64,000 bases of DNA from positions 1-64,000 of the forward strand of contig NZ_FOGR01000008.1 in assembly GCF_900111275.1 (NCBI RefSeq), in the 5' to 3' direction. Of the stretch, positions 36,799 through 60,268 are shown one piece after another. The translations under genes were made by a program, and so were the position numbers. The stretch's first letter is position 1. Every line of letters begins with the position of its first letter. Source of the stretch: Rhizobium sp. NFR03. GTDB taxonomy: Bacteria > Pseudomonadota > Alphaproteobacteria > Rhizobiales > Rhizobiaceae. The notes below the pieces were generated by a model. It was not told the origin of the DNA and did not search any database. It worked only from the letters and a program-made list of their open reading frames with translations.

Positions 36799-36838
36799 TG
36801 GCTGCTCCTTTTTTACCGGTCGGTTTCCTCTCCGCCGG

Positions 36839-37936: not shown

Positions 37937-37940
37937 CGGA

Positions 37941-38846: not shown

Positions 38847-38847
38847 C

Positions 38848-40608: not shown

Positions 40609-40626
40609 GTCCGCCATCAGGCGGAC
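40609..40626 (-). terminator. Hairpin overlapping the pxpC stop codon
   Basis: GTCCGCC-ATCA-GGCGGAC is a perfect 7-base-arm hairpin that contains the stop codon of pxpC. There is no T run. It may partly separate the enzyme genes from the transporter genes, which start 285 bases further on. That gap holds no gene that I can identify. Confidence 0.45.
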
Positions 40627-43842: not shown

Positions 43843-44075
43843 CAGCCAAGGTCCGCCAGAGGCGCGCCGGCCATGACGGGATCCTCATTGTCGATGAGGA
43901 AGGCGATGGCGGTGCCGGCGACCTCGGCCCGCACCTCGTGGAACGACTTCATCACCTCGATAAGTCCGATGACGTCGCCGACAGCCACATCGTCTCCGTC
44001 GGCTTTGAGAGGCGGCTGGCCGGGCGCGGCACTCCGGTAGAAGGTTCCGGGAAGGGGCGAAAGGATCTGTGTCAT
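43842..44075 (-). CDS. accB: Biotin carrier (lipoyl/biotinyl domain) protein
   Basis: A 77-residue protein that is only a biotinyl domain. The start PLPGTFYRSAAPGQPPLKAD matches the AccB carrier domain, and the attachment lysine is K43 in GLIEVMKSFHEVRAE (canonical EAMKM reads EVMKS). The N-terminal half of a full AccB (about 150 residues) is missing. This short form is often seen next to pxp genes. Its stop codon overlaps the accC start. Confidence 0.9.
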   Translation of the reverse strand: MTQILSPLPGTFYRSAAPGQPPLKADGDDVAVGDVIGLIEVMKSFHEVRAEVAGTAIAFLIDNEDPVMAGAPLADLG

Positions 44076-44888: not shown

Positions 44889-44974
44889 TTCAGTACCCCT
44901 CGTTAAGCTGCCGTCTTTGCGGCGTTGCACAATTGATGTCTGACGTTTTTGCGCTTGTGAAATAGTTATTTCTC

Positions 44975-44987
44975 GAATGTAATATTC
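44975..44987. promoter_or_regulatory. LysR-type site between pxpA and its divergent regulator
   Basis: GAAT-GTAAT-ATTC is a perfect inverted repeat in the A/T-rich 133-base region shared by pxpA and the LysR gene. Size and position fit a LysR recognition site controlling both directions. Confidence 0.5.
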
Positions 44988-45021
44988 AAAAAAACGATAA
45001 TGCTTCAGAGGGCAAAACGGC

Positions 45022-45927
45022 ATGAGTATTACATTGAAACAACTGGATTATTTTATTGCGTCGGCAGAAAGCGGGCAGGTCAGTCAAGCAGCGTTCAACC
45101 TGAATATTTCGCAATCGGCCGTCACCGCGGCCATCAAGTCGCTCGAGGAGGAACTCGGCGTCCGTTTGCTGGAACGCACACATTCGGGTGTCAGGCTGAC
45201 GATGGAGGGCGCGCGGTTCCTCGATCATGCCCGCATCATTACCGGCGCGGTCGCCGCCGCCGTGCATACGCCGCTGCGCGAAAGAAGCGGGCAGACGGGA
45301 CGCCTGAGCATCGGCATGACGTACACGGTCACCGGTTACTTCATGTCGAAATACTATGCCCGCTTCCGCAAGACCTATCCGCACATCAGCGTCGAGATCA
45401 AGGAACTGTCACGCGAGGCGCTGGAGCGACAGCTGGCGCGGGGCGACATAGCAATCGCACTGATGCTGGTGTCCAATCTTCAGAATTCGGATGCGCTTGA
45501 GCAGGAGCTTCTGCTGCGATCCAGCCGCAGACTGTGGCTTCCGGCCGACCATCACCTTCTGTCCCGTACCGAAATCCGCCTCGCGGACGTGGCGCTGGAG
45601 GATTACGTCATGCTGACCGTCGATGAGGCAAGCAAGACGGCAACACGCTACTGGGAACAGGCGGGGCTTCGTCCCCGCACCGTGCTGACCACCAGTTCGG
45701 TCGAAGCCGTTCGCTCGCTGGTCTCGGCGGGCGTCGGCGTGACGATCCTCTCCGACATGGTCTACCGGCCCTGGTCGCTCGACGGCCAGCGCATCGAGCT
45801 GCGACGACTGGTGGAGCCGATCCCCAGCATGGATGTCGGCCTTGCCTGGGCGCGCTCCCGCCCGATCGAATCCGCCGCGGCCACCTTCCGCGCCTTCATG
45901 TCGGTGACCATGGGCGGTGGCGGCTAG
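45022..45927 (+). CDS. LysR-family transcriptional regulator of the pxp operon
   Basis: A 301-residue regulator: helix-turn-helix TLKQLDYFIASAESGQVSQA, FNLNISQSAVTAAIKSLEEE, then an inducer domain (GRLSIGMTYTVTGYFMSKYY, SVEIKELSREALERQLARGD). It resembles the CynR/NAC-like LysR group. It is divergent from pxpA and its stop codon overlaps that of the convergent CoA-transferase gene by four bases. Confidence 0.93.
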   Translation: MSITLKQLDYFIASAESGQVSQAAFNLNISQSAVTAAIKSLEEELGVRLLERTHSGVRLTMEGARFLDHARIITGAVAAAVHTPLRERSGQTGRLSIGMTYTVTGYFMSKYYARFRKTYPHISVEIKELSREALERQLARGDIAIALMLVSNLQNSDALEQELLLRSSRRLWLPADHHLLSRTEIRLADVALEDYVMLTVDEASKTATRYWEQAGLRPRTVLTTSSVEAVRSLVSAGVGVTILSDMVYRPWSLDGQRIELRRLVEPIPSMDVGLAWARSRPIESAAATFRAFMSVTMGGGG

Positions 45928-47078
45928 AGCTGGTCGAAGTCGCACCCGATGTCGCGCAGGATCTCCTGCGTATGCTCGCCGAGGCGCGGAGAGCGACGGG
46001 CCAGAACGAGTTCGGCCTCCGAGAATGTCAGCGGCGTGCGGACGCCAGGAACGCCTTCGACCTCGATCTGCATGCCGCGAGACACGAACTGCGGATCGTT
46101 GAAAAGCTCGCTCATGGTGTTGATCGGGCCGGCGGGAACGACAATCGTTTCGAGCCTTGCCAGCAGGGCGTCCTTCGCCCAGAGCCGTGTCTTCGCCTCG
46201 ATGGTTTCGGTCAGCAGGAGGCGATGGCGAACCCGCGCGGCATTGGTCGCGAAGCGTTCGTCCAGCGCAAGGTCCGCCAGATCGAGCGAGATCGCCAGCC
46301 GGGCAAATTGCGCGTCGTTGCCGCAGGCGATGATGATGTGGCCATCGGACACTGCCACCGTCTGGTAAGGCGCGATATTCGGATGCGCGTTTCCCATCCT
46401 GCGGGGCACCACGCCGGTCGCCAGATAGTTCATCGCCTGATTCGCGAGAACGCCGCCCATGCAGTCGAGAAGCGAAATGTCGATCTGCTGACCCCTGCCC
46501 GTGCGGGCGCGTTGTAACAGCGCTGACTGGATACCAACAACGCCATAGAGCCCGCTGAAGATATCGGCAAAGGCGACGCCGATCTTCTGCGGCGATCCTT
46601 GCGGCTCCCCCGTGAGATCCATGATGCCGGCAATGCCCTGCACCATGAAATCATAACCGGCCCGGTGCGCCTGCGGCCCCGTCTGGCCGAAGCCGGTGAT
46701 GGAGCAGTAGATCAGGCCCGGCTGATGTTCCGCAAGGCTTGCATAATCCAGACCGTATTTTGCAAGACCGCCAACCTTGAAATTCTCGACCACGACATCG
46801 GCGGTGAGGATCAGCGCCTTGACCGCCGCCTGCCCCTCGGGCGTCGTGAAGTCCAGCACGATCCCGCGCTTGCCACGGTTGCAAGCATGAAAATAGGCGG
46901 CCGAGGATGTCTCGCCGTCATCGACATAGGGCGGCCCCCAGCGTCGCGTGTCGTCCCCATCAGGGCTTTCCACCTTGATCACGTCGGCGCCGAGATCGGC
47001 CAGCGTCTGCCCGATCCAGGGACCGGCCAGAATACGGGCGAGTTCGATGACGCGAATGCCTTCGAGCGGCGCGGACAT
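45924..47078 (-). CDS. CaiB/BaiF (class III) CoA-transferase, possible glutarate CoA-transferase
   Basis: A 384-residue class III CoA-transferase: start PLEGIRVIELARILAGPWIG, QTLADLGADVIKVESPDGDD, ADVVVENFKVGGLAKYGLDY, and the catalytic aspartate in VAFADIFSGLYGVVGIQSAL. It stands 38 bases after glutaryl-CoA dehydrogenase on the same strand. The pair gcdH plus CaiB-type transferase (gcdG) under a LysR regulator is the glutarate utilisation unit known from Pseudomonas, where the transferase makes glutaryl-CoA from succinyl-CoA. I infer that role here. Confidence 0.92.
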   Translation of the reverse strand: MSAPLEGIRVIELARILAGPWIGQTLADLGADVIKVESPDGDDTRRWGPPYVDDGETSSAAYFHACNRGKRGIVLDFTTPEGQAAVKALILTADVVVENFKVGGLAKYGLDYASLAEHQPGLIYCSITGFGQTGPQAHRAGYDFMVQGIAGIMDLTGEPQGSPQKIGVAFADIFSGLYGVVGIQSALLQRARTGRGQQIDISLLDCMGGVLANQAMNYLATGVVPRRMGNAHPNIAPYQTVAVSDGHIIIACGNDAQFARLAISLDLADLALDERFATNAARVRHRLLLTETIEAKTRLWAKDALLARLETIVVPAGPINTMSELFNDPQFVSRGMQIEVEGVPGVRTPLTFSEAELVLARRSPRLGEHTQEILRDIGCDFDQL

Positions 47079-47116
47079 TGTGAGGTTCCCCGGTTGCGGC
47101 GTGTTCGGGCGCAGCG

Positions 47117-48304
47117 TCAGAAAAAGGCTTGCAGGCCTGTCTGCGCGCGGCCGAGAATGAGGGCGTGAACGTCATGCGTGCCCTCATACGTGTTGACGGT
47201 CTCGAGGTTCTGCGCGTGGCGCATCACGTGGTACTCGATCTGGATCCCGTTTCCGCCATGCATGTCGCGCGCATTTCGGGCAATATCGAGCGCCTTGCCG
47301 CAATTGTTGCGCTTGATCAGCGAGATCATCTCGGGCGCAAACCGGTGCCCGTCCATCAAGCGCCCGACGCGGAGCGACGCCTGCAAGCCGAGCGCGATTT
47401 CCGTCTGCATATCCGCCAGCTTCTTCTGGAACAGCTGGGTCGCCGCCAGCGGCCGGCCGAACTGTACGCGGTCGAGACCGTAAGCGCGGGTACGCTCCCA
47501 GCAATCTTCCGCCGCTCCCATGACACCCCAGGAAATGCCGTATCGCGCCCTGTTCAGACAGCCGAACGGGCCTTTAAGCCCGGAGACGCCGGGAAGCAGC
47601 GCGTCCTCGCCGACCTCGACACCGTCAATGACGATCTCGCCGGTGATCGAAGCGCGCAGACTGAGCTTGCCCCCGATCTTCGGTGCCGACAGGCCCTTCA
47701 TTCCCTTCTCCAGAATGAAGCCCCTTATAGAATCGTCATGCGCTGCGGATTTTGCCCAGACGACGAAGACATCGGCGATCGGCGAATTGGAGATCCACGT
47801 CTTGGCCCCGTGCAGCCGGTAACCGGTGGCCGTCTTTTCGGCACGCGTCTTCATGCCGCCGGGATCCGACCCCGCATCCGGCTCCGTCAGTCCGAAGCAG
47901 CCGATCCGGTCGCCGGAGACGAGACCGGGCAGAAACCTGTCCTTCTGCGCCTCGCTGCCATAGGCATGGATCGGGAAGATCACCAGCGAACTCTGCACGC
48001 TCATCATCGACCTGTAGCCGGAATCCACGCGCTCGATTTCGCGCGCAACCAGCCCGTAGGAGACGTAGCTCGCACCGGCGGCGCCGTATTTTTCCGGCAG
48101 CGTCACGCCAAGCAGCCCGGCCTGCCCCATCGCCCTGAAGAGGCCCGTATCGGTCGTCTCTTTCAGATAGGCATCCCTGATCCGGGGCGCGAGCTCCGTG
48201 CGGGCGAAAGCTTGCGCGGCATCCCGGATCATCCGCTCCTCGTCGCTCAACTGATCGTCGAGCAGGAAAGGATCGTTCCAGGAAAAGGGTGCCATGTCGG
48301 TCAT
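47117..48304 (-). CDS. gcdH: Glutaryl-CoA dehydrogenase
   Basis: A 395-residue FAD enzyme that oxidises and decarboxylates glutaryl-CoA to crotonyl-CoA. It starts at [19 protein letters not shown] after GGAGAG; an upstream ATG adds 19 unsupported residues. GcdH-specific features are the N-terminal [19 protein letters not shown], [38 protein letters not shown] and the catalytic glutamate in [17 protein letters not shown]. The end of the family is GLQAFF, as seen here. Confidence 0.95.
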
Positions 48305-48331
48305 ATCGAGCTCTCCGTGTGCAAGGATCAT

Positions 48332-48348
48332 GCGGTCGGCGCGACCGC
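48332..48348. promoter_or_regulatory. Palindrome between gcdH and its divergent LysR gene
   Basis: GCGGTCG-GCG-CGACCGC is perfect and lies 28 bases upstream of the gcdH start, in the 93-base divergent region. It could be an operator of the adjacent LysR protein or a hairpin in the gcdH leader mRNA. Confidence 0.4.
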
Positions 48349-48397
48349 TTCGCAAAACCATATTTACTCATGCCGCCATTCGCTTTAGTCATAGCGG

Positions 48398-49345
48398 ATG
48401 GCCGCCCTTCCCCGTCAGCTCGTTCCCTCGACATCCGCCCTCACGGCGTTCGACGCCGTGGCGAAGCTCGGCAGTTTTTCGGCTGCCGCGCAGGGCCTCA
48501 ACCTGACTCAGGGCGCGGTCAGCCGGCAGGTCGCGCTGCTGGAGGGACAGCTGGGCGTCAGGCTTTTCGAACGGACCAACAAGGGCGTCGTCCTTACGGC
48601 GAAGGGCGAACACTATGCCGCAGGCGTCTCCGACATTATCAACCGCATCCGCACACTCTCGCTCGAAACCATGGCGAGCGATGCCAAGGGCTTGCTGAAA
48701 CTGGCCATCCTACCCACATTCGGCACGAGATGGCTGATGCCGCGCATGCCGGACTTCATCCGGCGGAACCCCGGCATCACCATCAATTTCGCGACGCGCA
48801 TCGGCCAGTTCGACTTCCGCTCCGCGTCCATCGATGCGGCGATCCATGTCGGACGGCCGGACTGGCCTGCGGCCGACTGTCAGTTTCTGATGCACGAGAC
48901 GGTTGTTCCCGTCTGCAGCCCGGCATTCCGGCAGCAGCACCCCGTCCGTGGCCCGAGGGATCTCCTGTCCGCCCCGCTCATCGACATGGCCTCGCGGCCC
49001 GGTGCCTGGCAGCACTGGTTTGCAAGCCTCGGTATTCCCGTTTCGCATCGCCAGCGCATGTCGTTCGAGCAATTCTCGAGCGTCGCGCAGGCCTGCATAG
49101 AAGGACTGGGCGTGGCGTTGATGCCAACTTTCCTCATTGCCGCGGAGATGGAAGCGGGACAGCTTGTCGAAGCCTATGACTGGCGCATCCAGAGCCCGTC
49201 ATCCTACTATGTCGTGCGACCGCTTGACCGCGTGGATTACGGCCCCGCAGCCCGTTTCGCCGTGTGGATCCTCGATCAGGCGGCGCAGTTCCACCGCTCC
49301 GGCGAGGTATCCAAGGATCCGGCCGTCCACACGCCGCATCGCTGA
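48398..49345 (+). CDS. LysR-family regulator, GcvA/GcdR-like
   Basis: A 315-residue LysR protein of the GcvA branch: PSTSALTAFDAVAKLGSFSA, LNLTQGAVSRQVALLE, LGVRLFERTNKGVVLTAKGE, then LAILPTFGTRWLMPRMPDF and IDAAIHVGRPDWPAADCQFL. It is divergent from gcdH and very probably its activator, in parallel with GcdR of pseudomonads. The gene ends 58 bases before the convergent aminotransferase gene, with a hairpin between. Confidence 0.92.
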   Translation: MAALPRQLVPSTSALTAFDAVAKLGSFSAAAQGLNLTQGAVSRQVALLEGQLGVRLFERTNKGVVLTAKGEHYAAGVSDIINRIRTLSLETMASDAKGLLKLAILPTFGTRWLMPRMPDFIRRNPGITINFATRIGQFDFRSASIDAAIHVGRPDWPAADCQFLMHETVVPVCSPAFRQQHPVRGPRDLLSAPLIDMASRPGAWQHWFASLGIPVSHRQRMSFEQFSSVAQACIEGLGVALMPTFLIAAEMEAGQLVEAYDWRIQSPSSYYVVRPLDRVDYGPAARFAVWILDQAAQFHRSGEVSKDPAVHTPHR

Positions 49346-49353
49346 ATGTCAGG

Positions 49354-49388
49354 CCGAGGCGTCATCCGAGGCTTTGATGACGCCTTGG
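49354..49388. terminator. Bidirectional terminator-like hairpin between convergent genes
   Basis: GGCGTCATC and GATGACGCC pair perfectly around CGAGGCTTT. The stem extends by four more pairs (CCGA with TTGG, one wobble), giving 13 base pairs. It lies between the stop codons of the convergent LysR and aminotransferase genes. Confidence 0.65.
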
Positions 49389-49403
49389 AATATGCTTCCG
49401 GCG

Positions 49404-50786
49404 TTATGCCAGCCCTTCTGCGGCAACCGCGCCGGTCAGCCGTTCGAGCGTCCGGCCCATGCGGGTCATGATGTCGGCAACGTCGTCCTCGGTGGCGATC
49501 AGGGGTGGGCAGAGGGCGAGCTGGTCGCCGATCGACCGGAAGATGATGCCTTCCTCATGGCCGATCGCGGAGGCGATGGCACCTGCCCGGCCAAGTTTAT
49601 CGAAGGCCTTGCGGGTCGTCTTGTCGGCCACCAGTTCGAGCGCGCCGATCAGGCCCGCACCGCGCGCCTCGCCGACAAGCGGATGATCCGCGAACGCCTG
49701 AAGGCCGGCCTGGAACGGCGCTTCCAGCCGGGCGGCATTGCCCATCAGGTCACGCTCCTCGATGATCGCGAGGTTTTCCAGAGCCACGGCCGAGGCGACG
49801 GGGTGGCCGGAGGCAGTATAGCCGTGGCCGAAGACACCCATCTTTTCCGAATTGTCGGCGATGACCTGATAGATCGGATCGGAGAACATGACGGCGGCAA
49901 GCGGCATGTAGGACGAGGTAATCTGTTTCGACAGCGTCATGATGTCCGGTGTGAAATTGTACTTCTGGCAGCCGAACGGCGTTCCTAGGCGACCGAAGCC
50001 GCAGATGACTTCGTCGGAAACGATCAGAATATCGTTGGCGCGGCAGATCCGCTCGACGCCTTCCCAGTAGCCGGCAGGTGGCGGCATCACACCGCCGGCT
50101 GCCATCAGCGGCTCGCCGATAAAGGCGGCGATGGTGTCGGCGCCCTCGTCGGCGATCACGCTTTCGAGTTCCGCCAGAAGCCGGGCCGTAAACGTTGCCT
50201 CGTCCTCGCCGGCAGCACCGAACCGGTAGAAATGCGGGCAGGTCAGATGGTGCACCGGAATGGCCGGCAGGTCGAAATCACGGTGATTGGTGGGCAGGCC
50301 CGTCAGGCTGCCGGAGGCGACGGTAATGCCGTGATAGCCCTTGATACGGGAGAGAAATTTCTTCTTTTTCGGCCGGCCCAGCGCGTTGTTCATGTACCAG
50401 ACCATTTTCACGATCGTATCGTTCGCCTCCGAGCCGGAGGAGGTGAAGAATGCCCTGGAAATGTTTGGCGGCGTCATGTCCACCAGCTTTTCGGCAAGCC
50501 GGATCGACGGCTCGTGAGCCTTGGAGGAGAACGTGTGGTAATAAGGCAGCTTGAGCATCTGCTTGTAGGCGGCTTCCGCGAGGCGCGGCTCCGAAAAGCC
50601 GACAGCCACGGACCAGAGGCCGGCCAGACCTTCGATATATTCCTTGCCGCGGTCGTCGTAGACGCGGATCCCCTCGCCCCGGTCGATCACCAGAGGCCCG
50701 GTTCTCTCATGCTGGCGCATATTGGTATTGGGGTGCATCGTGTTCGCGATGTCGGCGTCGGCAAGCGAATTGGAGAGCATGGTCAT
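49404..50786 (-). CDS. Class III PLP-dependent aminotransferase (omega-amino acid/polyamine type)
   Basis: A 460-residue aminotransferase. K287 in TLSKQITSSYMPLAAV binds PLP and D258 in ILIVSDEVICGFGRLG contacts the ring nitrogen. FTSSGSEANDTIVKMVWYMN binds the phosphate, and IEGLAGLWSVAVGFSEPRLA is the entry typical of omega-amino acid:pyruvate and diamine transaminases. I start at MTMLSNS, with GAGAAAG upstream. Beside glutarate genes and a lactam-opening enzyme, an omega-amino acid such as 5-aminovalerate is a reasonable amino donor, but beta-alanine, GABA or putrescine cannot be excluded. Confidence 0.93.
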   Translation of the reverse strand: MTMLSNSLADADIANTMHPNTNMRQHERTGPLVIDRGEGIRVYDDRGKEYIEGLAGLWSVAVGFSEPRLAEAAYKQMLKLPYYHTFSSKAHEPSIRLAEKLVDMTPPNISRAFFTSSGSEANDTIVKMVWYMNNALGRPKKKKFLSRIKGYHGITVASGSLTGLPTNHRDFDLPAIPVHHLTCPHFYRFGAAGEDEATFTARLLAELESVIADEGADTIAAFIGEPLMAAGGVMPPPAGYWEGVERICRANDILIVSDEVICGFGRLGTPFGCQKYNFTPDIMTLSKQITSSYMPLAAVMFSDPIYQVIADNSEKMGVFGHGYTASGHPVASAVALENLAIIEERDLMGNAARLEAPFQAGLQAFADHPLVGEARGAGLIGALELVADKTTRKAFDKLGRAGAIASAIGHEEGIIFRSIGDQLALCPPLIATEDDVADIMTRMGRTLERLTGAVAAEGLA

Positions 50787-50890
50787 GTCTTTCTCGCGGG
50801 GGCTGGAACTGGTGGTGAGCATCCCGATGGCCTTCGTGTGCCCGATTGCGTCTGACCGATCCTCATCGAACCGGCCGTCATTCCTTAATG

Positions 50891-50920
50891 TGCGTCAGGG
50901 TGCGTCATGGTGCAAACGCT
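50891..50920 (-). repeat. Ten-base tandem repeat upstream of the aminotransferase gene
   Basis: GTGCGTCAGG, GTGCGTCATG and the partial GTGCAAACGC follow each other at exactly ten-base spacing, one helical turn. On the coding strand this gives TGACGCAC twice in the same orientation, 105 bases before the start codon. Directly repeated sites at this spacing are typical for AraC-type activators, and an AraC gene ends this gene cluster. Confidence 0.45.
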
Positions 50921-53275
50921 TCATGGTATCAGAGTATTCGCGCGCCAGTCCCTCGCGACATGCGACAGGGCGGGCGCCGGTTCGATATCGTGGAGCAGCC
51001 GGAGAACGCGGGGAGGCGTCAGCGGAAGGCGGGAAACCGGCTTGCCGATGGCACGCGCAACGGCGCAGGCGATGGCTGCGCCCACGGCCAGAATAGGAAC
51101 CTCGCCTGCACCCTTGGTGCCGAGCGGACCGATGGAGGGCGCGCCTTCGTAGAGATCAGCGACGACCGGAACGACATCCTGCGCCAGCGGCACCCGGTAG
51201 GTCTCGAAACTATCCTGCGCGATCCGGCCGTCCCCGGTGATCGTGACTTCTTCATGCAAGGCATAGCCGAGCCCCTGCACCACCCCGCCCTGAATCTGGC
51301 CCATGATGGCCCGGCGGTTGAGCGCGCGGCCGACATCCTGCACGACCCTATAGGCGAGCACCTCGACATGGCCTGTCTCGGGATCGACCGCCACTTCAGC
51401 CTCGTGCACCACGAACACGGGAATATCGAGCGCATCGATGAAGTGCCCCATGGCGCAGCCGGACATCGCCGGCGTGTTCTTCGCGGTGAAGCTGCCCGTG
51501 CCGCTGATCGGCCCTGTGGTGGACTGCGCATAGGACACCACTTCGGGAATGCCGACACCCGATCCCGGCCGGCCGGCAATCTCGACGCGGCCATCGCGCA
51601 GCACCAGATCGCGCGGTGCCGTCTGCAGCATTTCACCGGCCGACCGCAACAGCTTCTCGCGCACTTCCGCCGATGCGCCCATGCTCGCCGCCCCGATGGA
51701 GACGGTGGTCCGCCCGCCGCCGACCCCGACATCGAGCCCCGACGCATCCGTATCCGCCTCGCGCACCACGATCTGGTCCGGACGCAGGCCAAGCTGTCCC
51801 GCAACGATCTGCGGCAGTGACTGCATCATCGTTCCCGAACCGATTTCCACACCTGACGTCACGAGTGTCGCGCTGCCGTCGGCGTTGAGGTTGATGGTCG
51901 CGGCGGAGGGGCCGACGAAGATGAACCATGTGCCAACTGCCATAGCCCGACCGTAGAGCCGGCCGTCGGCCCTCTCCTTCAGCGTGCCGGTTTTTGCCCG
52001 TAGCGCGTCCATTCGCTCCAGCATGGGACCGAGAACATCGCCCTCGAAGATCTGGCCGGTCGGACCGGGATCGCCATCGCGCAGAACGTTGCGCTTTCGA
52101 AACGCAATCGGATCCATGTCGATGGCGGCGCAGATCTCGTCGGTATGACGTTCGACGGCAAAGCTGTTGTAGACGCCGTTGCAGGCCCGGAACGCGCCAT
52201 TGGGCGGCGTATTGGTGTAGACGGCGCGACTGACCACCCGGACGGCGCCAAGCCGGTAATTGCCAGCGAGCGTATGAGATGTCATGGTGGTGAGGAATAC
52301 CTGCTCGCCGCCATAGGCACCGCAATCCATCAGCACCACAGCCTCGCGGGCCGCGATCTCCCCGTCCGCCGTTACGGCGGAGCGGATTACGATCTCGGCG
52401 TTTTCCCGGCAGAGACAGGTCGCCATCTCCTCCTGCCTGTTGTTTTCGAGCATCACGGGCAGCCCCGTCATACGGGCAAGGAGCGCCGTCACCGGCTCGA
52501 TCGATGCATCGAATTTCAGCCCGAAGCCGCCTCCGACCGGCGGCACCGTCACACGGACGCGGCCGGGTGGCAGCTGCATCACCCGCCCCGTCACGTTGCG
52601 GACGGTCCATGGCACCTGCGTGGACGCTTCGATATGCGCGCGCCCATCCTCCCACCGGCCGATGGCCACCCTTGGCTCGAAGGGGACGTGGCTCTGCCGC
52701 CCCACCTCGAATCGGCTCTCGACGATGGTGACATCGGCCCTCGCAAAAGCCTGATCGACATCGCCCCGCACGGACTTTGCCTCCCAGGCGATATTGCCGG
52801 ATCGCGCACCGCCTTCGGTCAGCACGTCGTAGCTGCGCCAGTCCTCATGCACCGGCCGGGCATCGGTCGCCAGCGCGTCGGCCATGGTGAGGAGAGGCGC
52901 AACCGGCTCGACCTCCAGAACGATGGCGGCAAGAGCCGCACGTGCGTCTTCAAGCGTATCTGCCGCAATGGCCGCGATAGGCTCGCCGTGATACCGGATG
53001 ACCTCAGCTGCAAAGAGCGGGTGGTCGGCAATGCCGATGCCATACTGTCCGGGCGCATCCGCTGCGGTCACGATGCCACGAACGCCGGGACATTTCAGCG
53101 CCTCTGACAGGTCCAGCCGCACGATCCGGCCGGCCGGCACCGTTGCGCGGAAAAGCACGGCCTGAAGCATATCCGGCCGTGCGCGATCGTTGGTATAGCG
53201 GGTTCGCCCGCGCAGCTTGTCGCGCGCATCCCGACGGGGAAGATCCATCACGGTCGCTGCCAGATCGTCCGTCAT
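50921..53275 (-). CDS. Molybdenum hydroxylase large subunit (xanthine dehydrogenase/CoxL family)
   Basis: The 784-residue molybdopterin-binding catalytic subunit. It starts with an aldehyde-oxidase-type a/b hammerhead (LRGRTRYTNDRARPDMLQAV, GIVTAADAPGQYGIGIADHP). Cofactor-binding motifs are VPPVGGGFGLKFD, NGAFRACNGVYNSFAVER and GVGGGRTTVSIG. The catalytic glutamate is in LGTKGAGEVPILAVGAAI near the end. It lacks the AYRCSFR-type loop of carbon monoxide dehydrogenase, so it should hydroxylate an organic substrate, for example an N-heterocycle or aldehyde. Last of three subunit genes with four-base overlaps. Confidence 0.93.
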   Translation of the reverse strand: MTDDLAATVMDLPRRDARDKLRGRTRYTNDRARPDMLQAVLFRATVPAGRIVRLDLSEALKCPGVRGIVTAADAPGQYGIGIADHPLFAAEVIRYHGEPIAAIAADTLEDARAALAAIVLEVEPVAPLLTMADALATDARPVHEDWRSYDVLTEGGARSGNIAWEAKSVRGDVDQAFARADVTIVESRFEVGRQSHVPFEPRVAIGRWEDGRAHIEASTQVPWTVRNVTGRVMQLPPGRVRVTVPPVGGGFGLKFDASIEPVTALLARMTGLPVMLENNRQEEMATCLCRENAEIVIRSAVTADGEIAAREAVVLMDCGAYGGEQVFLTTMTSHTLAGNYRLGAVRVVSRAVYTNTPPNGAFRACNGVYNSFAVERHTDEICAAIDMDPIAFRKRNVLRDGDPGPTGQIFEGDVLGPMLERMDALRAKTGTLKERADGRLYGRAMAVGTWFIFVGPSAATINLNADGSATLVTSGVEIGSGTMMQSLPQIVAGQLGLRPDQIVVREADTDASGLDVGVGGGRTTVSIGAASMGASAEVREKLLRSAGEMLQTAPRDLVLRDGRVEIAGRPGSGVGIPEVVSYAQSTTGPISGTGSFTAKNTPAMSGCAMGHFIDALDIPVFVVHEAEVAVDPETGHVEVLAYRVVQDVGRALNRRAIMGQIQGGVVQGLGYALHEEVTITGDGRIAQDSFETYRVPLAQDVVPVVADLYEGAPSIGPLGTKGAGEVPILAVGAAIACAVARAIGKPVSRLPLTPPRVLRLLHDIEPAPALSHVARDWRANTLIP

Positions 53276-53748
53276 GAGCGTACTCCCTGCCGATGCCCGA
53301 CGAATTCCATCACGGCATCGACGATCCGCTCATAGCCGGTGCACCGACAGATGTTGCCCGCCATAGCCGCCTTCACATCCGTGCGGGTGGGAGCCGGACT
53401 GTCTCGCAGAAAGGACGAAAGGCTCATGACCATTCCGGGAAAGCACATGCCGCATTGCACGACATCGGCCGCCTCCAGCGCAGCCGCCAGCGGATGAAGC
53501 GGACCATCGCCGGTGGACATGGCCTCGATGGAGGTGACGGCCGCGCCTTGCAGCAGGCCGATGGGACGAAGGCAGGACATCACGGCCATGCCATCGACCT
53601 CGACCGTGCAGGCACCGCAAAAACCCTCGCGGCAGACGGCCTTGGTGCCCGTCAGAAAACGCTCCCGCCGGAGCACATCGACCAGCGGCGTCATCGGATC
53701 ACCGGTAAAACGGCAGGCGGAGCCGTTGATGGTCAACGTGACGGTCAT
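53272..53748 (-). CDS. Molybdenum hydroxylase iron-sulphur subunit (CoxS family)
   Basis: A 158-residue protein with two [2Fe-2S] clusters. The plant-ferredoxin-type cluster is CREGFCGACTVEVDGMAVMSC. The second is QCGMCFPGMVMSL plus NICRCTGYERIVDAVMEF. It passes electrons from the molybdenum centre to the FAD subunit. It overlaps both neighbours in ATGA-type overlaps. Confidence 0.95.
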   Translation of the reverse strand: MTVTLTINGSACRFTGDPMTPLVDVLRRERFLTGTKAVCREGFCGACTVEVDGMAVMSCLRPIGLLQGAAVTSIEAMSTGDGPLHPLAAALEAADVVQCGMCFPGMVMSLSSFLRDSPAPTRTDVKAAMAGNICRCTGYERIVDAVMEFVGHRQGVRS

Positions 53749-54602
53749 CGTATCCCCTCCTGTCGAGCAAGCGCCACCGCCGCCCGCCGCGCAAGCGCCG
53801 GAAGGACCTGCCGGCGATACCAGCCATCCGCTTCAGGCCCGTCGCGACCCTTGAAATCATTGCAGGAAGCAGCAAGCGCTGCTGTGCGCTCCGGGTCGAG
53901 AGGCATGTCCCCACGGTCGGGCGCAAGCGCCTCTTCCAGCGCGTGCCAGCGACGAGCGACGGGCTCGACAGATCCCACGGCAAAACGAAGCCGCCGGTCC
54001 CGATCTCGCGCCACGGAAAGGATCGCAACGGGATAATCGCCGGCCTTGCGAAGCGGCAGTCTCATATGGGTGCTGGCGACGAGATTGCGGGGCAGGATCA
54101 CGCTGACAAGAAGAGTGTCGGTCAGGTACCGCGCCCTGTCGTCCAGAAATACAGCGATCGGCAACTGCTCCGCGCCGGCGCGCGTCCGAAGTTCGACAAT
54201 GGCTTCCGTCGCCAGAAACGCCGGCAGAAGATCGGCGGCGGCAAAGTCCCGCGTGCAGAGATTGCCCCCGACTGTCGCCACACGGCGGATCGCCGGATTG
54301 GCCGCACCGGATGCAGCCGTCGCCACAGCCTCGAGACCGGCGATGCCGGCCAGAGACCGGGCAAGCGCCTCGTGCGTGACCGATGCCCCGATACGGACCC
54401 GGTCCGTACCGATAGCGATGTCGCCAAGCCCCGGAATGGCCTGTAGCGACACCAGTGCGCGTGTAATGCTCTCCCGCCGCAGGGGCGCGCGCATCAGCCA
54501 TGTCCCGCCGGCAAGGATCGTCGCGCCGTCGAGACGAGCGGCCAGCGCGCCCTCGACGGTTTCTGGCAGCATCAGCGAGCGCTCTTCGAGATCGACCGTC
54601 AT
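53745..54602 (-). CDS. Molybdenum hydroxylase FAD subunit (CoxM family)
   Basis: A 285-residue FAD-binding subunit. Motifs are GATILAGGTWLMRAPLRRES (pyrophosphate binding) and IRRVATVGGNLCTRDFAAAD. The C-terminal domain ends ALARRAAVALARQEGIR. The start MTVDLEERSLMLP follows AGGGGA. Upstream in the same frame is a long extension without family support that includes three copies of a 14-base repeat. It is the first of three subunit genes. Confidence 0.92.
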   Translation of the reverse strand: MTVDLEERSLMLPETVEGALAARLDGATILAGGTWLMRAPLRRESITRALVSLQAIPGLGDIAIGTDRVRIGASVTHEALARSLAGIAGLEAVATAASGAANPAIRRVATVGGNLCTRDFAAADLLPAFLATEAIVELRTRAGAEQLPIAVFLDDRARYLTDTLLVSVILPRNLVASTHMRLPLRKAGDYPVAILSVARDRDRRLRFAVGSVEPVARRWHALEEALAPDRGDMPLDPERTAALAASCNDFKGRDGPEADGWYRRQVLPALARRAAVALARQEGIR

Positions 54603-54631
54603 GTTCGCGTCCCCTGTTTCGCGTCCCCCAT
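54599..54631 (-). CDS. Possible 10-residue leader peptide overlapping the FAD-subunit start
   Basis: ATG GGG GAC GCG AAA CAG GGG ACG CGA ACA TGA encodes MGDAKQGTRT. It has its own GAGGA seven bases upstream, and its TGA overlaps the ATG of the FAD-subunit gene in an ATGA overlap. Such an arrangement would couple the two translations. Whether it is translated is unknown; it may be just a by-product of the repeat triplication. Confidence 0.3.
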   Translation of the reverse strand: MGDAKQGTRT

Positions 54632-54645
54632 TTCGCGTCCTCTGT
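54604..54645 (-). repeat. Three tandem 14-base repeats carrying the ribosome-binding segment
   Basis: Three units start at 54604, 54618 and 54632. Each contains GGACGCGAA on the coding strand, preceded by AGGG, GGGG or AGA. The unit next to the gene contains the ribosome-binding site of the FAD-subunit gene. The exact 14-base period with small differences suggests local duplication. A change in copy number would alter spacing and frame of the leader. Confidence 0.6.
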
Positions 54646-54694
54646 GCCGCGCGATGCGGCGTTGCAGCATAGTGTCCGAACCCGGCCGTCCTGT

Positions 54695-54708
54695 GAAATA
54701 CGCATTTC
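54695..54708. promoter_or_regulatory. Inverted repeat upstream of the molybdenum hydroxylase operon
   Basis: GAAAT-ACGC-ATTTC lies 93 bases before the FAD-subunit start, between it and the end of the hydantoinase genes. Plausible regulator site for a promoter of the three-gene operon. Confidence 0.35.
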
Positions 54709-54737
54709 GGGAAAGTCTTATCGGGAAAACAGATACC

Positions 54738-54763
54738 CGACCGGCGGGTTTGCGAGCCGGTCG
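54738..54763 (-). terminator. Hairpin immediately after the hydantoinase B stop codon
   Basis: CGACCGGC and GCCGGTCG pair perfectly around a ten-base loop. On the transcribed strand it starts right after the TGA and is followed by GGTATCTGTTTTC. It probably ends or attenuates the hydantoinase transcript before the molybdenum hydroxylase genes. Confidence 0.55.
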
Positions 54764-56728
54764 TCAGGCCCAGTGCGCAACACTTCGCTTCTCGAAACTC
54801 TCGCGAAACTGCATCGTGGTCTTCTCCAGCACCTCGCCGCTTTCCCAGTCGAGAATAACGGCAAAGCGGCGGACGGCGTCGAGAGCGTTTATCTCGCCCG
54901 CCTTGTAGCGGATCGAGATATCGCGAGGGTCGCATCTGGCCCAGCCCTTGCGCTCGCTGCGGATCTCGGCCCGCGCCGCTTCCGTTGCCGCCGTATCCAC
55001 CTTAAAGGCGCAGAGGTCGCGGTCGATCTCGAGGATCACCACGCCATAGTCGAGGACTGCCCGGGCGATGGAGACGTAATCGTCGATCACGTCTTCCAGC
55101 ACATGGAGCGGATCGCGCTCCAGCGGATCGCCGAAGCCGCCGCCACCGGCTGTCGGGCGCGCAAACTGGTCGCCCGTCGAAACGGCGTAATCGGAAAAAA
55201 CGGAGCCGAGCCAGGTATCGGTGTCCTCGCCGGCCCGCCGGATCGTCAGCCCGTGCGGCATGGACGGCAGCCCGCCTTCGACACCCCAGACAACCGCCCG
55301 CTCCCGGTCGCAGATGTAGGACATGACAGCATCTTCGGCGTCCAGCAGCACGGAGGTTTTCTGCACGCCGACACCGCCGCGCCATTTGCCGGGACCGGCG
55401 GAATCGCGGCCGATCTGGAATTCCAGCGTACGGGTCGGATTGACGCGCTCATTACCCTCGTTCGGCTGGGACATCAGCCCGGTCCCGAAGCAGGCCGTCG
55501 TCACATCGGCGCCGTCCTTGCCGTTGCGGCCGCCCCAGCCGCCGGGAAGCCATTCGTAGAACATGAAGATCGGCTTTTCCGGCTTGCGCGCATCCCGGCC
55601 GCCGGCCAGGAGATATTCCAGATTGAACGCACAGGCGATGGCTCGTTCCGGCATGATCTTCGACCACATCTCGAAGATCGCATTCATGATCTTCTCGAAC
55701 GGCATCAGAAACCCGGTGACGGCAACGGGCCATTCCGCGCTGACGACGCTGTTCTTCGGCGCGCTGACCCGGATCATCCGGTAGAAGCCGCTGTTGAGCG
55801 GCAGGTCGGGGAAGAAGGTCTTCATGCCTGCGACCACGGCCGAGAAGGTTGCGCCCGGCGCGGAATTATACATCGAGGCAATGGTGGCATGGCTTCCGGT
55901 GAAGTCATAATGCACGCTGTCGCCGGAGATCGTCATCTTGATGCGGATCGGGATCATTCCCTCGCCGCCGCCGAGATCGCGGTCGATGTAGTCGACCGTT
56001 TCCCAGGTGCCGTCCGGCAGCTCGGACAGGCGCTTGCGAACCGCGCGCTCGACGTAATCCTGCACTTCCTCCATGCCGCGCGTTACCGTATCGCGACCGT
56101 ACTTGCGCACCAGCCGCAGCAATTCGCGCTCCGCCGCCTGCGTCGCCTGCGCCTGGGAGTGGATATCCCCGATGATGGACGCGGGATCGCGCGTGTTGGC
56201 GGCAATCAGGTTGGCGACATCGGAACAGAAGCGACCGGTGCGAAACAGCCGCACCGGCGTGATCCGCAGTCCCTCGCGAAACATGTCGCGCGCCGTCACG
56301 TCGAACGAGCCCGGCACCGAACCGCCGAGGTCCGACCAGTGACCGTTCGACTGGGCAAAGCCGATCAGCTTGTCTTCATCGAAGATCGGTCGCACCAGCC
56401 GCACATCGCTGAAGTGCGTGCCGCCGGCATAGGGATCGTTGATGGCGTAGACATCGCCCGGCGCCATGTCGCCCTCGAACACCCGGATGACCTCCTTGCA
56501 GGTGTTGTGCAGGGTGCCGACATGGACGGCGATATCGTAGTTGCCCTGCGCGACCGAGTTTCCATCCGCGTCGTGCAGCGCATTGGAAAAATCCCGGTTG
56601 TAGATGACGAAGGAATAGCAGGTGCGCAGCATCTGCTCCGCCATCTGGTCGACGGTGGTGATGAAGGAGTTCTTCAGCACCTCGAACGTGACCGGGTCGA
56701 GCTGCCCGGCACTCATGAGCCTGGTCAT
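54764..56728 (-). CDS. Hydantoinase/oxoprolinase family B subunit
   Basis: A 654-residue subunit. It starts QLDPVTFEVLKNSFITTVDQMAEQM (quoted in part: LDPVTFEVLKNSF), the HyuB hallmark. Others are DVYAINDPYAGGTHFSDVRL, RTGRFCSDVANLIAANTRDP, ISGDSVHYDFTGSHATIASM and GGGGFGDPLERDP. With the A subunit it forms an ATP-dependent lactam, hydantoin or oxoproline hydrolase. The closest functional model I know is OplBA of Pseudomonas putida, which opens valerolactam. Acetophenone-carboxylase-type relatives also exist. Three bases separate the two genes. Confidence 0.93.
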   Translation of the reverse strand: MTRLMSAGQLDPVTFEVLKNSFITTVDQMAEQMLRTCYSFVIYNRDFSNALHDADGNSVAQGNYDIAVHVGTLHNTCKEVIRVFEGDMAPGDVYAINDPYAGGTHFSDVRLVRPIFDEDKLIGFAQSNGHWSDLGGSVPGSFDVTARDMFREGLRITPVRLFRTGRFCSDVANLIAANTRDPASIIGDIHSQAQATQAAERELLRLVRKYGRDTVTRGMEEVQDYVERAVRKRLSELPDGTWETVDYIDRDLGGGEGMIPIRIKMTISGDSVHYDFTGSHATIASMYNSAPGATFSAVVAGMKTFFPDLPLNSGFYRMIRVSAPKNSVVSAEWPVAVTGFLMPFEKIMNAIFEMWSKIMPERAIACAFNLEYLLAGGRDARKPEKPIFMFYEWLPGGWGGRNGKDGADVTTACFGTGLMSQPNEGNERVNPTRTLEFQIGRDSAGPGKWRGGVGVQKTSVLLDAEDAVMSYICDRERAVVWGVEGGLPSMPHGLTIRRAGEDTDTWLGSVFSDYAVSTGDQFARPTAGGGGFGDPLERDPLHVLEDVIDDYVSIARAVLDYGVVILEIDRDLCAFKVDTAATEAARAEIRSERKGWARCDPRDISIRYKAGEINALDAVRRFAVILDWESGEVLEKTTMQFRESFEKRSVAHWA

Positions 56729-56731
56729 GTT

Positions 56732-58759
56732 CTAGCCTTTCGTTCCGATAAGAATATTGAGAAATGCATCGACCCGCGCCGCCATGTCGGGCGGAACCAC
56801 GGTGGTGGAGTCGAACTGCTCGACGATAGCCGGCCCCTGGAACACTGCACCGGCCTCAAGCACCTCGCGCTGGTAGACGGCTGCATCGTGCGAGACGCCA
56901 TCGAACCAGACCGGCCGCCGGGCGACCGGCTCCGGCACGTGCTCTCTCTCCTCGTGCCTTGGCAGGTCGGCTTTCGGCACGATGCCTACCGCCTTGATGG
57001 CGATGCGGAAGATGGAGACCGGCGCCTCGTCGCGACGGTAATTGAATTCGCGCTCATGCTCGGCGTGGAAAGCCTCGATCAGGTCGGCAATACTGTCGAT
57101 ACGATGAGGGGCATTGACGGCGAGCGACCGCCACTGGCCCTGATACATCATCTCGACCGACCGCTGGAGCGCCATATCGGCCGGCGCGATGCCTTCATGG
57201 GCGAGCCGCTCCGCCGCCTGGCTCTCCATCGCAGCGAAAGCAGCCTCCATATCGGCCGGCGCGACGATGGATGCATCCGTCATGAAGCTTTCGGAAAAGT
57301 CGTGCTGGACATCGACCAGCAGGCAGCCGAGCGCCGATGTGACGCCGGGATTGGGAGGGACGATGACTGTGGGGATGGAGAGTTCGCGGGCGACGGCTGC
57401 GCCATGCAGGGCTCCGGCACCGCCAAAGGCGACGAGTGCGAAGTCGCGCGGGTCGTAGCCCCGGCTGATCGAGAGCAGCCGCACAGCATTGGCCATGTTG
57501 GCATTGGCGACGGCGATGATGGCTTCGGCGGCGGCGTGCAGTTCCATGCCGAAGGGCGTGGCGACGGTATCGAGAACCGCCCGCGCGGCAAGCGCCGGAT
57601 CGAGCCTGATCTTGCCGCCGGCAAGACGGGTGCCGAGCCGCCCCAACACGACATTCGCATCCGTATTCGTGGCGGTCGCATTGCCGTTGCGGTAGCAGGC
57701 GGGACCGGGATGAGCCCCGGCCGATTGGGGACCGTTGCGCAGCGATCCCCCCTCGTCTTTCCACGCGAGCGAACCGCCACCGGCGCCGATCGTCAGGACC
57801 TCGATGGAGGGAAAGCGAATGGGATAGCCAAATTCGATATACCAGTCCTTGGTGATGCGGGACACGCCGTTAAAGGCGAGCGACACGTCGGTACTCGTTC
57901 CCCCCATGTCAAAGCCGATGGAATTGGGAAAGCCGCAGAGATTGCCGATGAACCGGCTGGCAAGCGCGCCCGCCGCGATTCCCGAACCGGCAAGCCGCGC
58001 CGAGAATTCGCGCACGCTTGCCGGCGTCATGACCCCGCCGCCGGAATGCAGCAGCAGCAGGTCTCGATGATATCCGCGCGCGGCGAGCGTCTCTCCGAGA
58101 CGCGAGACATAATCGACCACCACGGGCGCGCAGACGGCATTCGCCATCGTGGTCGAGAACCGTTCATGCTCGAAGATCTCCGGCATGACCTCCGAGGATA
58201 TCGACACCGGCAGGTCCGGCATGACCTCCTTCAGGATATCGCGCATACGGCGTTCGTTCGCGCCGTTAACGTAGGAATTCATGAAGCAGACGGCAGCGGA
58301 CCTGACCTCGCGCCGCCTGAGAATATCGGCCACCCGGTGCGCCTGCGTCTCGTCGAGCGCCTGAAGCACCGTGCCTTCGGCATCGATACGCTCGCTGACG
58401 GTCAGCCGGTCGCGACGGGGAATGTAGGGCTTGGCGACATCCTTGTAGGTATCCCAGAGATCCTCCTTGTTCGCGCGCCGGATCTCCACGACATCGCGGA
58501 AGCCCTCGGTGCAGATCATCGCGGTGCGCGGCAGACGCCGGGTTATGAGGGCATTGGTGGCAACGGTCGTCCCGTGCGAGAACATCGTCACCTCGGAAAG
58601 GTCGATGCCGGCCTGCTCGACGCCGTTGAGGATGGCGCGCATGGGATCGTCGGGGGTCGATCCGGTCTTCTCGATCCGGATGGCGCCGGTGTCTTCGTCC
58701 ATGATGCAGATATCGGTGAAGGTGCCTCCGACATCCACGGCCACGCGCGTCCTCGTCAT
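56732..58759 (-). CDS. Hydantoinase/oxoprolinase family A subunit
   Basis: A 675-residue ASKHA-fold subunit that binds ATP. Motifs are VAVDVGGTFTDICIMDEDTG at the start, MFSHGTTVATNALITRRLPR, SVSISSEVMPEIFEHERFST-type region (VSISSEVMPEIFEHER), GFDMGGTSTDVSLAFNGV, LTIGAGGGSLAWKDEGG and DFALVAFGGAGALHG. The residues after GGTSTD match HyuA/OplA-type enzymes that phosphorylate the carbonyl of the ring amide before hydrolysis. It is first of the pair and lies next to an AraC regulator on the same strand. Confidence 0.93.
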   Translation of the reverse strand: MTRTRVAVDVGGTFTDICIMDEDTGAIRIEKTGSTPDDPMRAILNGVEQAGIDLSEVTMFSHGTTVATNALITRRLPRTAMICTEGFRDVVEIRRANKEDLWDTYKDVAKPYIPRRDRLTVSERIDAEGTVLQALDETQAHRVADILRRREVRSAAVCFMNSYVNGANERRMRDILKEVMPDLPVSISSEVMPEIFEHERFSTTMANAVCAPVVVDYVSRLGETLAARGYHRDLLLLHSGGGVMTPASVREFSARLAGSGIAAGALASRFIGNLCGFPNSIGFDMGGTSTDVSLAFNGVSRITKDWYIEFGYPIRFPSIEVLTIGAGGGSLAWKDEGGSLRNGPQSAGAHPGPACYRNGNATATNTDANVVLGRLGTRLAGGKIRLDPALAARAVLDTVATPFGMELHAAAEAIIAVANANMANAVRLLSISRGYDPRDFALVAFGGAGALHGAAVARELSIPTVIVPPNPGVTSALGCLLVDVQHDFSESFMTDASIVAPADMEAAFAAMESQAAERLAHEGIAPADMALQRSVEMMYQGQWRSLAVNAPHRIDSIADLIEAFHAEHEREFNYRRDEAPVSIFRIAIKAVGIVPKADLPRHEEREHVPEPVARRPVWFDGVSHDAAVYQREVLEAGAVFQGPAIVEQFDSTTVVPPDMAARVDAFLNILIGTKG

Positions 58760-58860
58760 GCTTCTATCCTCGTCATGGTCTGATCCTTATCGAACACGGG
58801 GGCTCCTTCGCTGCCCGTATTGCGGGCGGCGTTCGGCGTCTGCAGAGTGCGTGCCAGCGG

Positions 58861-58880
58861 CCGGTCGGTTTTTGGACCGG
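58861..58880 (-). terminator. Hairpin between the AraC gene and the hydantoinase genes
   Basis: CCGGTC and GACCGG arms enclose an eight-base loop with five A/T pairs. It lies 42 bases after the AraC stop codon on the minus strand. It may end the regulator transcript or structure the hydantoinase leader. Confidence 0.45.
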
Positions 58881-58921
58881 CGCGTTCTCAGATGGAGCGC
58901 GCGTGCTTTACCGGCCGCGCC

Positions 58922-59902
58922 CTAGTGGCGTCCCGGCATATCCGGCAGCTCGATTGCCCGGAGCGCTGCCTTGCGGCGAGTGTCGCCCGGAGAACAGCCG
59001 AACCGGGCGCGATAATGTCGGCAGAACTGGGACTGGTCGGAAAAACCCCAGCGGTAGGCGATCTCCGCGATGGTCACCGTGCAGGTCACGGATCTCAATT
59101 CCTCGGAGCACTGGTCGAGACGGCTGTCGCGGATGAAACCGTTGATCGACGTGTTGCTCTCCTGAAAAAGGCCCTGGAGATAGCGCAGCGAAATGCCTCC
59201 GGCATCGGCAACCGACTGCGGCGAAAGGGACCGGCTCTTCACATTGTCGCGGATGAACTGCTCGGCGCGATGCAGGTGTCCGGCACGGATGGAGGAGATG
59301 TTGCTGTCGAGCACGCGGTCGTCGCTGACGATGGAAAGGCACAGCATTTCAAGGATATGCCGGCCCGTCATCTCGCGGGCGGCCTCGTCGATATCGGCGA
59401 CGTGGCTGACGGTCGTGCGCACCATGTCGAGGAAGAGCGCGGCCACGCCCTTCGTCGCGTCGAAACTGAGAGCACTGAACCTGTCCGTCGAGCCGATGCG
59501 CGAGCGCACGCTTGCGGAGGGAACCTTGAGAACCCAGAGCGAATTCGGCCGTCCGTGCCAGAATTCGTAAGGCGCATCGCCCTGTTCGACGATGAAACCG
59601 CCCGGCTCGCATTTGACGCTGCGCGACCCTTGCGAGAAGTTGACGTCGCTCACCTCGGGAATGGAGACGAGCAGGCTGGCCTCGCGCTCGTTGAGGAAAT
59701 GCCGCCGGTGCCGGTGGTAGCTGACGGCGTTGCAGCGCATGCGCGAGACGCCGATGAGCCCGAGCGACCAGGTTTCAAGCTCGCCCCGGAATTCCAGACG
59801 GTTGCGGTAGTCCGTATCCAGCGGAAAGTACGTCTCGGTAACGGCTGCCTGCCAGGAATCGCCTCCGGCAACGCCGTCGATGCTATCGACAACATATCTC
59901 AT
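58922..59902 (-). CDS. AraC-family transcriptional regulator
   Basis: A 326-residue activator with an N-terminal sensing domain of the AraC-binding-like type (SQGSRSVKCEPGGFIVEQGD, YEFWHGRPNSLWVLKVP). The C-terminal double helix-turn-helix is GISLRYLQGLFQESNTSING, IAEIAYRWGFSDQSQFCRHY, RARFGCSPGD. It stands upstream of the hydantoinase A gene on the same strand. In Pseudomonas the lactam hydrolase OplBA is controlled by the AraC protein OplR, so a similar role is likely but unproven. Confidence 0.92.
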   Translation of the reverse strand: MRYVVDSIDGVAGGDSWQAAVTETYFPLDTDYRNRLEFRGELETWSLGLIGVSRMRCNAVSYHRHRRHFLNEREASLLVSIPEVSDVNFSQGSRSVKCEPGGFIVEQGDAPYEFWHGRPNSLWVLKVPSASVRSRIGSTDRFSALSFDATKGVAALFLDMVRTTVSHVADIDEAAREMTGRHILEMLCLSIVSDDRVLDSNISSIRAGHLHRAEQFIRDNVKSRSLSPQSVADAGGISLRYLQGLFQESNTSINGFIRDSRLDQCSEELRSVTCTVTIAEIAYRWGFSDQSQFCRHYRARFGCSPGDTRRKAALRAIELPDMPGRH

Positions 59903-60158: not shown

Positions 60159-60268
60159 CTTACGTGTTCTGGTCTGCATTCTCTGCCGGGCAAGCTGTAC
60201 TCTCAGGGTATCGAAGCTATTTTGCCTGCACTTTCACATCCAGACCTGATAGACGACAAGGTGCTGCC

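Follow-up and report, generated by a model that had tools for sequence, protein, structure and literature searches.

A 64,000-nucleotide stretch of the Rhizobium sp. NFR03 genome (contig NZ_FOGR01000008.1, positions 1 to 64,000; hereafter the window) carries an island in which the genes of a molybdenum hydroxylase lie near those of two predicted ATP-dependent systems for opening cyclic amides. On the reverse strand, the island encodes the molybdopterin-binding large subunit of the hydroxylase (MoL; 50921..53275) and its [2Fe-2S] subunit (53272..53748), both recognized by profiles and motif, and its FAD subunit (53745..54602; profiles), whose open frame extends to 54935 and whose start probably lies near 54602 because near relatives (L045, L049 and L066) are 283-284 amino acids long. 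The same strand carries HydB, the predicted hydrolytic subunit of an ATP-dependent cyclic-amide hydrolase (54764..56728; profiles and motif), HydA, its predicted ATP-using subunit (56732..58759; profiles, tree and motif), and an AraC-type regulator (58922..59902; profiles). The second predicted opener, also on the reverse strand, comprises a PxpC-like, or urea-carboxylase-like, carboxyltransferase subunit (40617..41600; CT_A_B), a PxpB-like carboxyltransferase subunit (41590..42465; CT_C_D), a biotin carboxylase (AccC; 42478..43842; PRK12833, 751 bits, passing the cut-off of 686), a short putative biotin carrier of 77 amino acids (43842..44075; named by inspection from an EVMKS motif, with no profile match behind the name) and a PxpA (LamB/YcsF) subunit (44172..45023; profile scans). 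Pfam and NCBIfam scans of the ten genes noted in an earlier sequence-only reading confirmed each gene family it had named; flanking genes were assigned with Pfam. The hydroxylase has the make-up of the xanthine dehydrogenase type (Mo, FAD and 2x[2Fe-2S] subunits plus a GAGE motif), and the solved chains nearest to MoL are 4-hydroxybenzoyl-CoA reductase and 6-hydroxypseudooxynicotine dehydrogenase. All motifs sought in HydA, HydB, MoL, and the glutaryl-CoA dehydrogenase and aminotransferase described below were present, and we assume for them their usual catalytic meaning, including the role of GAGE in MoL.

To follow the hydroxylase across genomes, we took the best 80 of 149 genome loci with a MoL relative (by title from Rhizobium, Agrobacterium, Mesorhizobium, Bradyrhizobium, Aureimonas, Ancylobacter, Sulfitobacter and others), 66 of which span at least 20 kb, and counted an opener as linked when a relative of HydA, PxpB or PxpC lay within about 10 kb of the hydroxylase. 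An ATP-dependent opener was linked in 72 of the 80 MoL loci and in 62 of the 66 longer ones; 28 loci had both kinds, 36 HydAB only, 8 Pxp/AccC only and 8 neither. By family, HydA and HydB were each found in 64 loci, PxpC in 36, PxpB in 35, PxpA in 32 and biotin carboxylase in 15, and AraC relatives (at least 45% identity) in 37. The controls were 20 loci of other molybdenum hydroxylases in relatives (27-35% identity to MoL), hand-picked at one per genome with island genomes, two short contigs and G059 skipped, and covered in 19.9-kb stretches, slightly shorter than the MoL loci. HydA and HydB occurred in two of these 20 loci, against an opener in 72 of 80 (Fisher p 8e-12, a value that overstates the case because the 80 MoL loci are not independent), and PxpA, PxpB and PxpC were absent from all 20 of the 19.9-kb stretches.

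The two openers also exchange places. A close MoL (66-86% identity) was listed in six other genomes among 101 (the source genome and 100 relatives), and the order AraC-HydA-HydB-Mo recurs in five of the six, the sixth (G077) having a Pxp set in place of HydAB. Next to PxpA in the window lies a LysR regulator (45022..45927, forward strand; Pfam), which adjoins PxpA in G017, G023 and G077 as well, and beyond PxpC lies a branched-chain/amide-type ATP-binding cassette (ABC) transporter with a substrate-binding protein, two permeases and two ATPases (35605..40367, reverse strand; Pfam). The complete LysR-PxpA-AccC-PxpBC-transporter set is present in two of the six relatives (G017 and G023); G077 has the LysR-Pxp-AccC set without a transporter of the window's type, and in G051 the stretch shows PxpC, PxpB and AccC and then ends. 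Since these genes adjoin at 35605-45927 and accompany the hydroxylase island in part of the relatives, the edges first drawn for the cluster (45924..59902) cut through a unit. Orthologues of the transporter genes occur in 20 to 25 of the 80 MoL loci. In Ancylobacter (L087) and Aureimonas (L105) the order is HydA-HydB-transporter-Mo, and in Metarhizobium (L079) and Pseudooceanicola (L122) it is AccC-PxpB-PxpC followed by a transporter of the same protein clusters (c13, c10 and c6) and Mo; in annotated Aureimonas and Rhizobium TH2 records with this layout, the transporter genes carry the names TorT-like binding protein, sugar ABC ATPase and permease. At these loci the two openers stand, as if interchangeable, at one site before one transporter, the best evidence that both act on the same compound.

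HydAB has the features of the ATP-dependent hydantoinase/oxoprolinase family, with HydA and HydB domains on two adjacent genes and an ATP-site motif, and the sequence-only reading had pointed to OplBA of Pseudomonas as a known counterpart. Against the CapA and CapB equivalogs it scores 510 and 289 bits, both below the cut-off of 1000. In a 36-row HydA tree, with only CapA, N-methylhydantoinase and acetophenone carboxylase as references, several long branches and an uncertain root, the window HydA falls into a clade of its own (26 of 36 rows, support 100/99) apart from all three. The phylogeny speaks against a grouping with CapA and also against one with N-methylhydantoinase or acetophenone carboxylase, which would have told against the sequence-only reading. 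Pseudomonas putida OplAB is 80-86% identical to CapAB in the comparison given in part of PMC8453981, and as HydA scores below the CapA cut-off and branches apart from CapA, we rejected OplBA as its identity. The clade is discrete: among 398 genomes of the phylum, source included and with no more than two candidates per genome scored, four had HydA at 56% identity or more, and the next best reached at most 42%. CapA itself pairs, outside this clade (100/99), with the HydA of L082, a molybdenum locus that has both a Pxp set and HydAB (14509-18462) and may hold a third kind of opener. Plasmids of roughly 190 kb in Agrobacterium and R. rhizogenes (H37-H40) encode a more distant HydA (41.6%); for such plasmid genes, a section of PMC6733357 suggests opine-lactam opening.

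The Pxp set scores as urea-carboxylase-like. Its PxpC-like subunit reaches 271 bits with TIGR00724 (above the cut-off of 230), 229 with urea carboxylase and 217 with the PxpC equivalog (below 500), and its PxpB-like subunit reaches 94 bits with urea carboxylase against 62 with PxpB (below 146); PxpA reaches no PxpA equivalog cut-off and passes those of two PxpA subfamilies. With these scores below the PxpABC equivalog cut-offs, a plain 5-oxoprolinase was rejected. Like PxpABC 5-oxoprolinase, the window has PxpA, PxpB and PxpC relatives, and it differs by having its own biotin carboxylase and carrier; like urea carboxylase, it has a biotin carboxylase and carboxyltransferase, here as separate polypeptides instead of one chain. 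A biotin/PxpA opener would parallel, in bacteria, the fungal lamA/lamB system for 2-pyrrolidinone. CapAB is an ATP-dependent lactamase that requires bicarbonate, and the three mechanisms weighed by the authors of that work include one through a carboxylated lactim (both from part of PMC8453981). A biotin carboxylase set serving the same pathway would agree with an activation by carboxylation. PxpA of another kind (54-57% identity) is encoded in L049-L053, L056-L062, L063, L067, L070, L073 and L075; in L049 it sits between MoL and the aminotransferase, and in the last five of these loci it has no PxpB or PxpC in the stretch covered.

Adjoining MoL is a class III omega-aminotransferase of the PRK06105 subfamily (49404..50822, reverse strand; 734 bits, cut-off 517 passed). 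It matches the Pseudomonas jessenii structure 6G4B, which we take to be the caprolactam-pathway aminotransferase, at 587 bits. Its proposed linkage to the hydroxylase holds in part: it recurs at 60% identity or more in 28 of the 80 MoL loci, and in four of the six close-MoL relatives (81-90% identity). Three congeners (G001:C41, L178, 16381-18007; G002:C2, L180; G004:C3, L176) encode the aminotransferase (91-92% identity), and immediately upstream of it each retains a short piece of MoL with a frameshift; the aminotransferase-Mo pair is therefore old in the genus and has decayed there. We had considered whether this strain acquired the entire island recently; the relics show that the genus once had the pair.

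Between the aminotransferase and the Pxp-side LysR lies a trio of glutaryl-CoA genes: a GcdR-like LysR regulator (48398..49345, forward strand; Pfam/NCBIfam) divergent from glutaryl-CoA dehydrogenase (gcdH product, GCDH; 47117..48361, reverse strand), and a CaiB-type CoA-transferase (45924..47078, reverse strand), probably of the succinate-glutarate type (gcoT-like). The solved chains nearest to GCDH are glutaryl-CoA dehydrogenases (739 bits to 4w9u, 590 to 3gnc and 537 to 1sir), and it carries the YEG motif (TYEGTHD at 391); for the CoA-transferase, the succinate-glutarate equivalog (NF052585) is the best of seven families, at 556 bits short of its cut-off of 750. The layout is that of P. putida gcdR-gcdH-gcoT, where a divergent LysR likewise precedes gcdH and the CoA-transferase in one unit (PMC6667623, in part); the window cassette differs in sitting inside a cyclic-amide island. 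The sequence-only reading had the gene set right and placed it on one strand, which is true of most genes, the regulator at 48398-49345 being on the opposite one, and the CoA-transferase lies at the low-coordinate end, before gcdH.

That reading had also joined hydroxylase, hydantoinase and glutaryl-CoA genes into one pathway cluster. The co-occurrence search upheld the link between hydroxylase and opener (72 of 80 loci), so a shorter form stands, and it failed to extend the link to all units: orthologues of GCDH, CoA-transferase and GcdR were found in 0 of 80 MoL loci at the identity limits used, and a looser search (E<=1e-10) gave one GCDH relative (26%) and one CoA-transferase relative (36%). 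The trio is likewise in none of the six close-MoL relatives, where a 26% acyl-CoA dehydrogenase relative in G077 was the only match. In Rhizobium skierniewicense (G023) the aminotransferase adjoins the Pxp-side LysR, and the window trio lies exactly between those two genes. These comparisons indicate that the trio is a local insertion into the island; cassettes of its type stand alone in relatives G014, G020 and G022.

The insertion bears on a six-membered ring as substrate, for which the route would run from piperidine/1-piperideine through 2-piperidone, 5-aminovalerate, glutarate semialdehyde and glutarate to glutaryl-CoA and crotonyl-CoA, with the trio working and the aldehyde dehydrogenase elsewhere; two succinate-semialdehyde dehydrogenase (SSADH)-type genes above cut-off do lie elsewhere in the source genome, and P. 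putida GcdR responds to glutarate (PMC6667623, in part). gcdH is single-copy in the source genome, inside the island, and no gcdH was found at E<=1e-60 in six of six congeners. It is present somewhere in 49 of 50 genomes with a Mo island (those of 47 of the 80 loci and three of the relatives' set), a co-occurrence that we judge weak because gcdH is common anyway: a general sample of 41 genomes, source included, has it in 27. Two of eight haloarchaeal plasmid loci (Natrinema and Natronococcus) join HydAB (50-55% identity) with an aminotransferase, a CoA-transferase (42-43%) and GCDH (48-51%, in Natronococcus matching in two pieces). Both belong to one family, their aminotransferase is only about 26% like that of the window, their stretches hold no Mo genes, and the six other haloarchaeal plasmid loci have no GCDH/CoA-transferase pair beside HydAB. 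With the trio unlinked in all conserved loci and relatives, and its cassette also standing alone elsewhere, we consider this C5 route possible and on the whole unlikely. For this one genome, glutarate as the fate is modestly favoured, because of the single-copy gcdH in the island, its lack in the six congeners and the two similar plasmids.

The neighbours of HydAB elsewhere also suit a five-membered ring. A sample centred on HydA (20 plasmid loci, hand-picked among the best 40 of 999 records) includes a Halomonas plasmid on which HydAB lies beside SSADH (692 bits, above cut-off) and an aminotransferase of the same PRK06105 subfamily as that of the window, and in Rhodococcus gordoniae HydAB lies beside GabT (583 bits, above cut-off). 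A 1-pyrroline/pyrrolidine-type ring would then pass through 2-pyrrolidinone and gamma-aminobutyrate to succinate semialdehyde, an ordinary SSADH, such as those above cut-off in the source genome, finishing the route and the trio being unrelated; that no conserved MoL locus has a gcdH orthologue agrees with this. Neither the Halomonas nor the Rhodococcus locus has a Mo hydroxylase in the stretch examined, however, and their HydA falls outside the rhizobial group; the Rhodococcus aldehyde dehydrogenase reaches no SSADH cut-off, and that locus also has a CoA-transferase frame broken by a stop. This C4 route, too, seems to us a doubtful candidate.

Our best reading, common to either ring size, runs from N-heterocycle to cyclic amide, omega-amino acid and semialdehyde, and we infer each reaction, the substrate, its ring size and the order of steps from the genes. 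The island probably encodes the catabolism of an N-heterocycle or cyclic imine taken up from outside. After import, the Mo hydroxylase would oxidize the carbon adjacent to the ring nitrogen, yielding a cyclic amide. HydAB would open the amide with ATP, HydA activating the amide oxygen and HydB hydrolysing; and/or biotin carboxylase, carrier and PxpB/PxpC would carboxylate the amide and PxpA receive the product. The two would do the same kind of job and could replace or back up one another. The omega-aminotransferase would convert the freed omega-amino acid to its semialdehyde, and, for a six-membered ring, the gcdR-gcdH-gcoT cassette inserted in this strain would carry the resulting C5 acid on to crotonyl-CoA. 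The steps may also run in another order, a diamine first being converted by the aminotransferase into the cyclic imine on which the Mo hydroxylase then acts.

Several observations weigh against this reading. Seen from the HydAB side, a Mo hydroxylase accompanies the opener in only 3 of the 20 plasmid loci; 8 of the 80 MoL loci, four of them full length, have no opener of either kind; the R. tropici MoL locus (L109) sits among sugar genes; and the aminotransferase, at the identity limit given, is missing from most MoL loci. The nearest solved relative of HydA/HydB is N-methylhydantoinase (436/274 bits), ahead of CapAB (363/225), and cytosine permeases (in two Paracoccus and one Halomonas), Zn-dependent hydrolases or methylmalonate-semialdehyde dehydrogenase are encoded near certain HydAB pairs of the clade, which suits a lactam and a cyclic ureide alike. 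On the ureide account the hydroxylase would convert an imidazole- or pyrimidine-type ring to a hydantoin or dihydropyrimidine, the opener would yield an N-carbamoyl amino acid, and a beta-amino acid would be the substrate of the aminotransferase; a Natronorubrum locus unites HydAB with a Zn-dependent hydrolase, an aminotransferase and methylmalonate-semialdehyde dehydrogenase, and the urea carboxylase likeness of the Pxp set fits as well. HydA and N-methylhydantoinase nevertheless belong to separate tree groups, and no carbamoylase was recognized beside the rhizobial loci, where most neighbours are without annotation. We regard a ureide as rather improbable. With GCDH, SSADH or GabT, and methylmalonate-semialdehyde dehydrogenase as alternative neighbours, the HydAB clade seems to serve different chain lengths.

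Among known systems, the anaerobic indoleacetate pathway, which includes a molybdenum hydroxylation step, resembles the proposed module by description in ring hydroxylation, an ATP-dependent hydantoinase-type opener, a CoA-transferase and a decarboxylating acyl-CoA dehydrogenase; its substrate is aromatic, and we know of no aminotransferase or Pxp set in it. In Aromatoleum/Azoarcus, 2-oxoindoleacetate is opened by a hydantoinase-type enzyme (PMC8453981, in part), and a CoA-transferase and a decarboxylating dehydrogenase take part (PMC8360864, in part). One control locus (L193, G080:C17; 19.9 kb) recalls that pathway in its make-up, having a different Mo hydroxylase (31% to MoL) with distant relatives of HydA, HydB, acyl-CoA dehydrogenase and CoA-transferase. 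The caprolactam cluster of P. jessenii likewise combines an ATP-dependent two-subunit lactamase with an omega-aminotransferase, which is pyruvate-dependent, and a CoA-transferase is caprolactam-induced there; the sections of PMC6061476 and PMC8453981 covered here mention neither a Mo hydroxylase nor a biotin/PxpABC set, and the window HydA belongs to another clade.

The conserved pairing of a Mo hydroxylase with two alternative ATP-dependent openers appears to be the new content of this analysis. A literature search that left most subscription papers outside, and so does not establish absence from print, found no description of a cluster that unites a Mo hydroxylase, HydAB and a PxpABC/biotin set. 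As a tentative proposal, which we would not yet bet on as a whole, the island may encode a pathway for N-heterocycles not yet described, with one Mo hydroxylase, two unrelated and interchangeable carboxylation-linked openers (one from a new HydAB clade; the other a split biotin complex, urea-carboxylase-like, in which PxpA acts as a lactam carboxylase-hydrolase) and an output coupled to glutaryl-CoA by the gcd insertion. If true, this would give a testable function to genes in many plant-associated alphaproteobacteria that are currently named after distant kin ('xanthine dehydrogenase family', 'hydantoinase', 'biotin-dependent carboxyltransferase/5-oxoprolinase'), would provide a natural example of two unrelated ATP-driven solutions for opening a stable cyclic amide, and would bear on the bicarbonate need of CapAB and on the breakdown of lactams (nylon monomer).

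The GC content of the island is 0.63-0.645, against 0.60-0.62 outside. Synteny with G003, G004 and G006 extends over its left flank (26.6-35.2 kb); a cluster at 27369-35210, syntenic in congeners, holds a separate ABC transporter with phosphotriesterase, GATase1-like, PfkB, BtpA and M20 genes. The right edge, near 60.2 kb, falls in repeated sequence: positions 60164-61261 comprise an ABC-transporter gene fragment and sequence repeated in the genome and in congeners, perhaps the remains of a mobile element.

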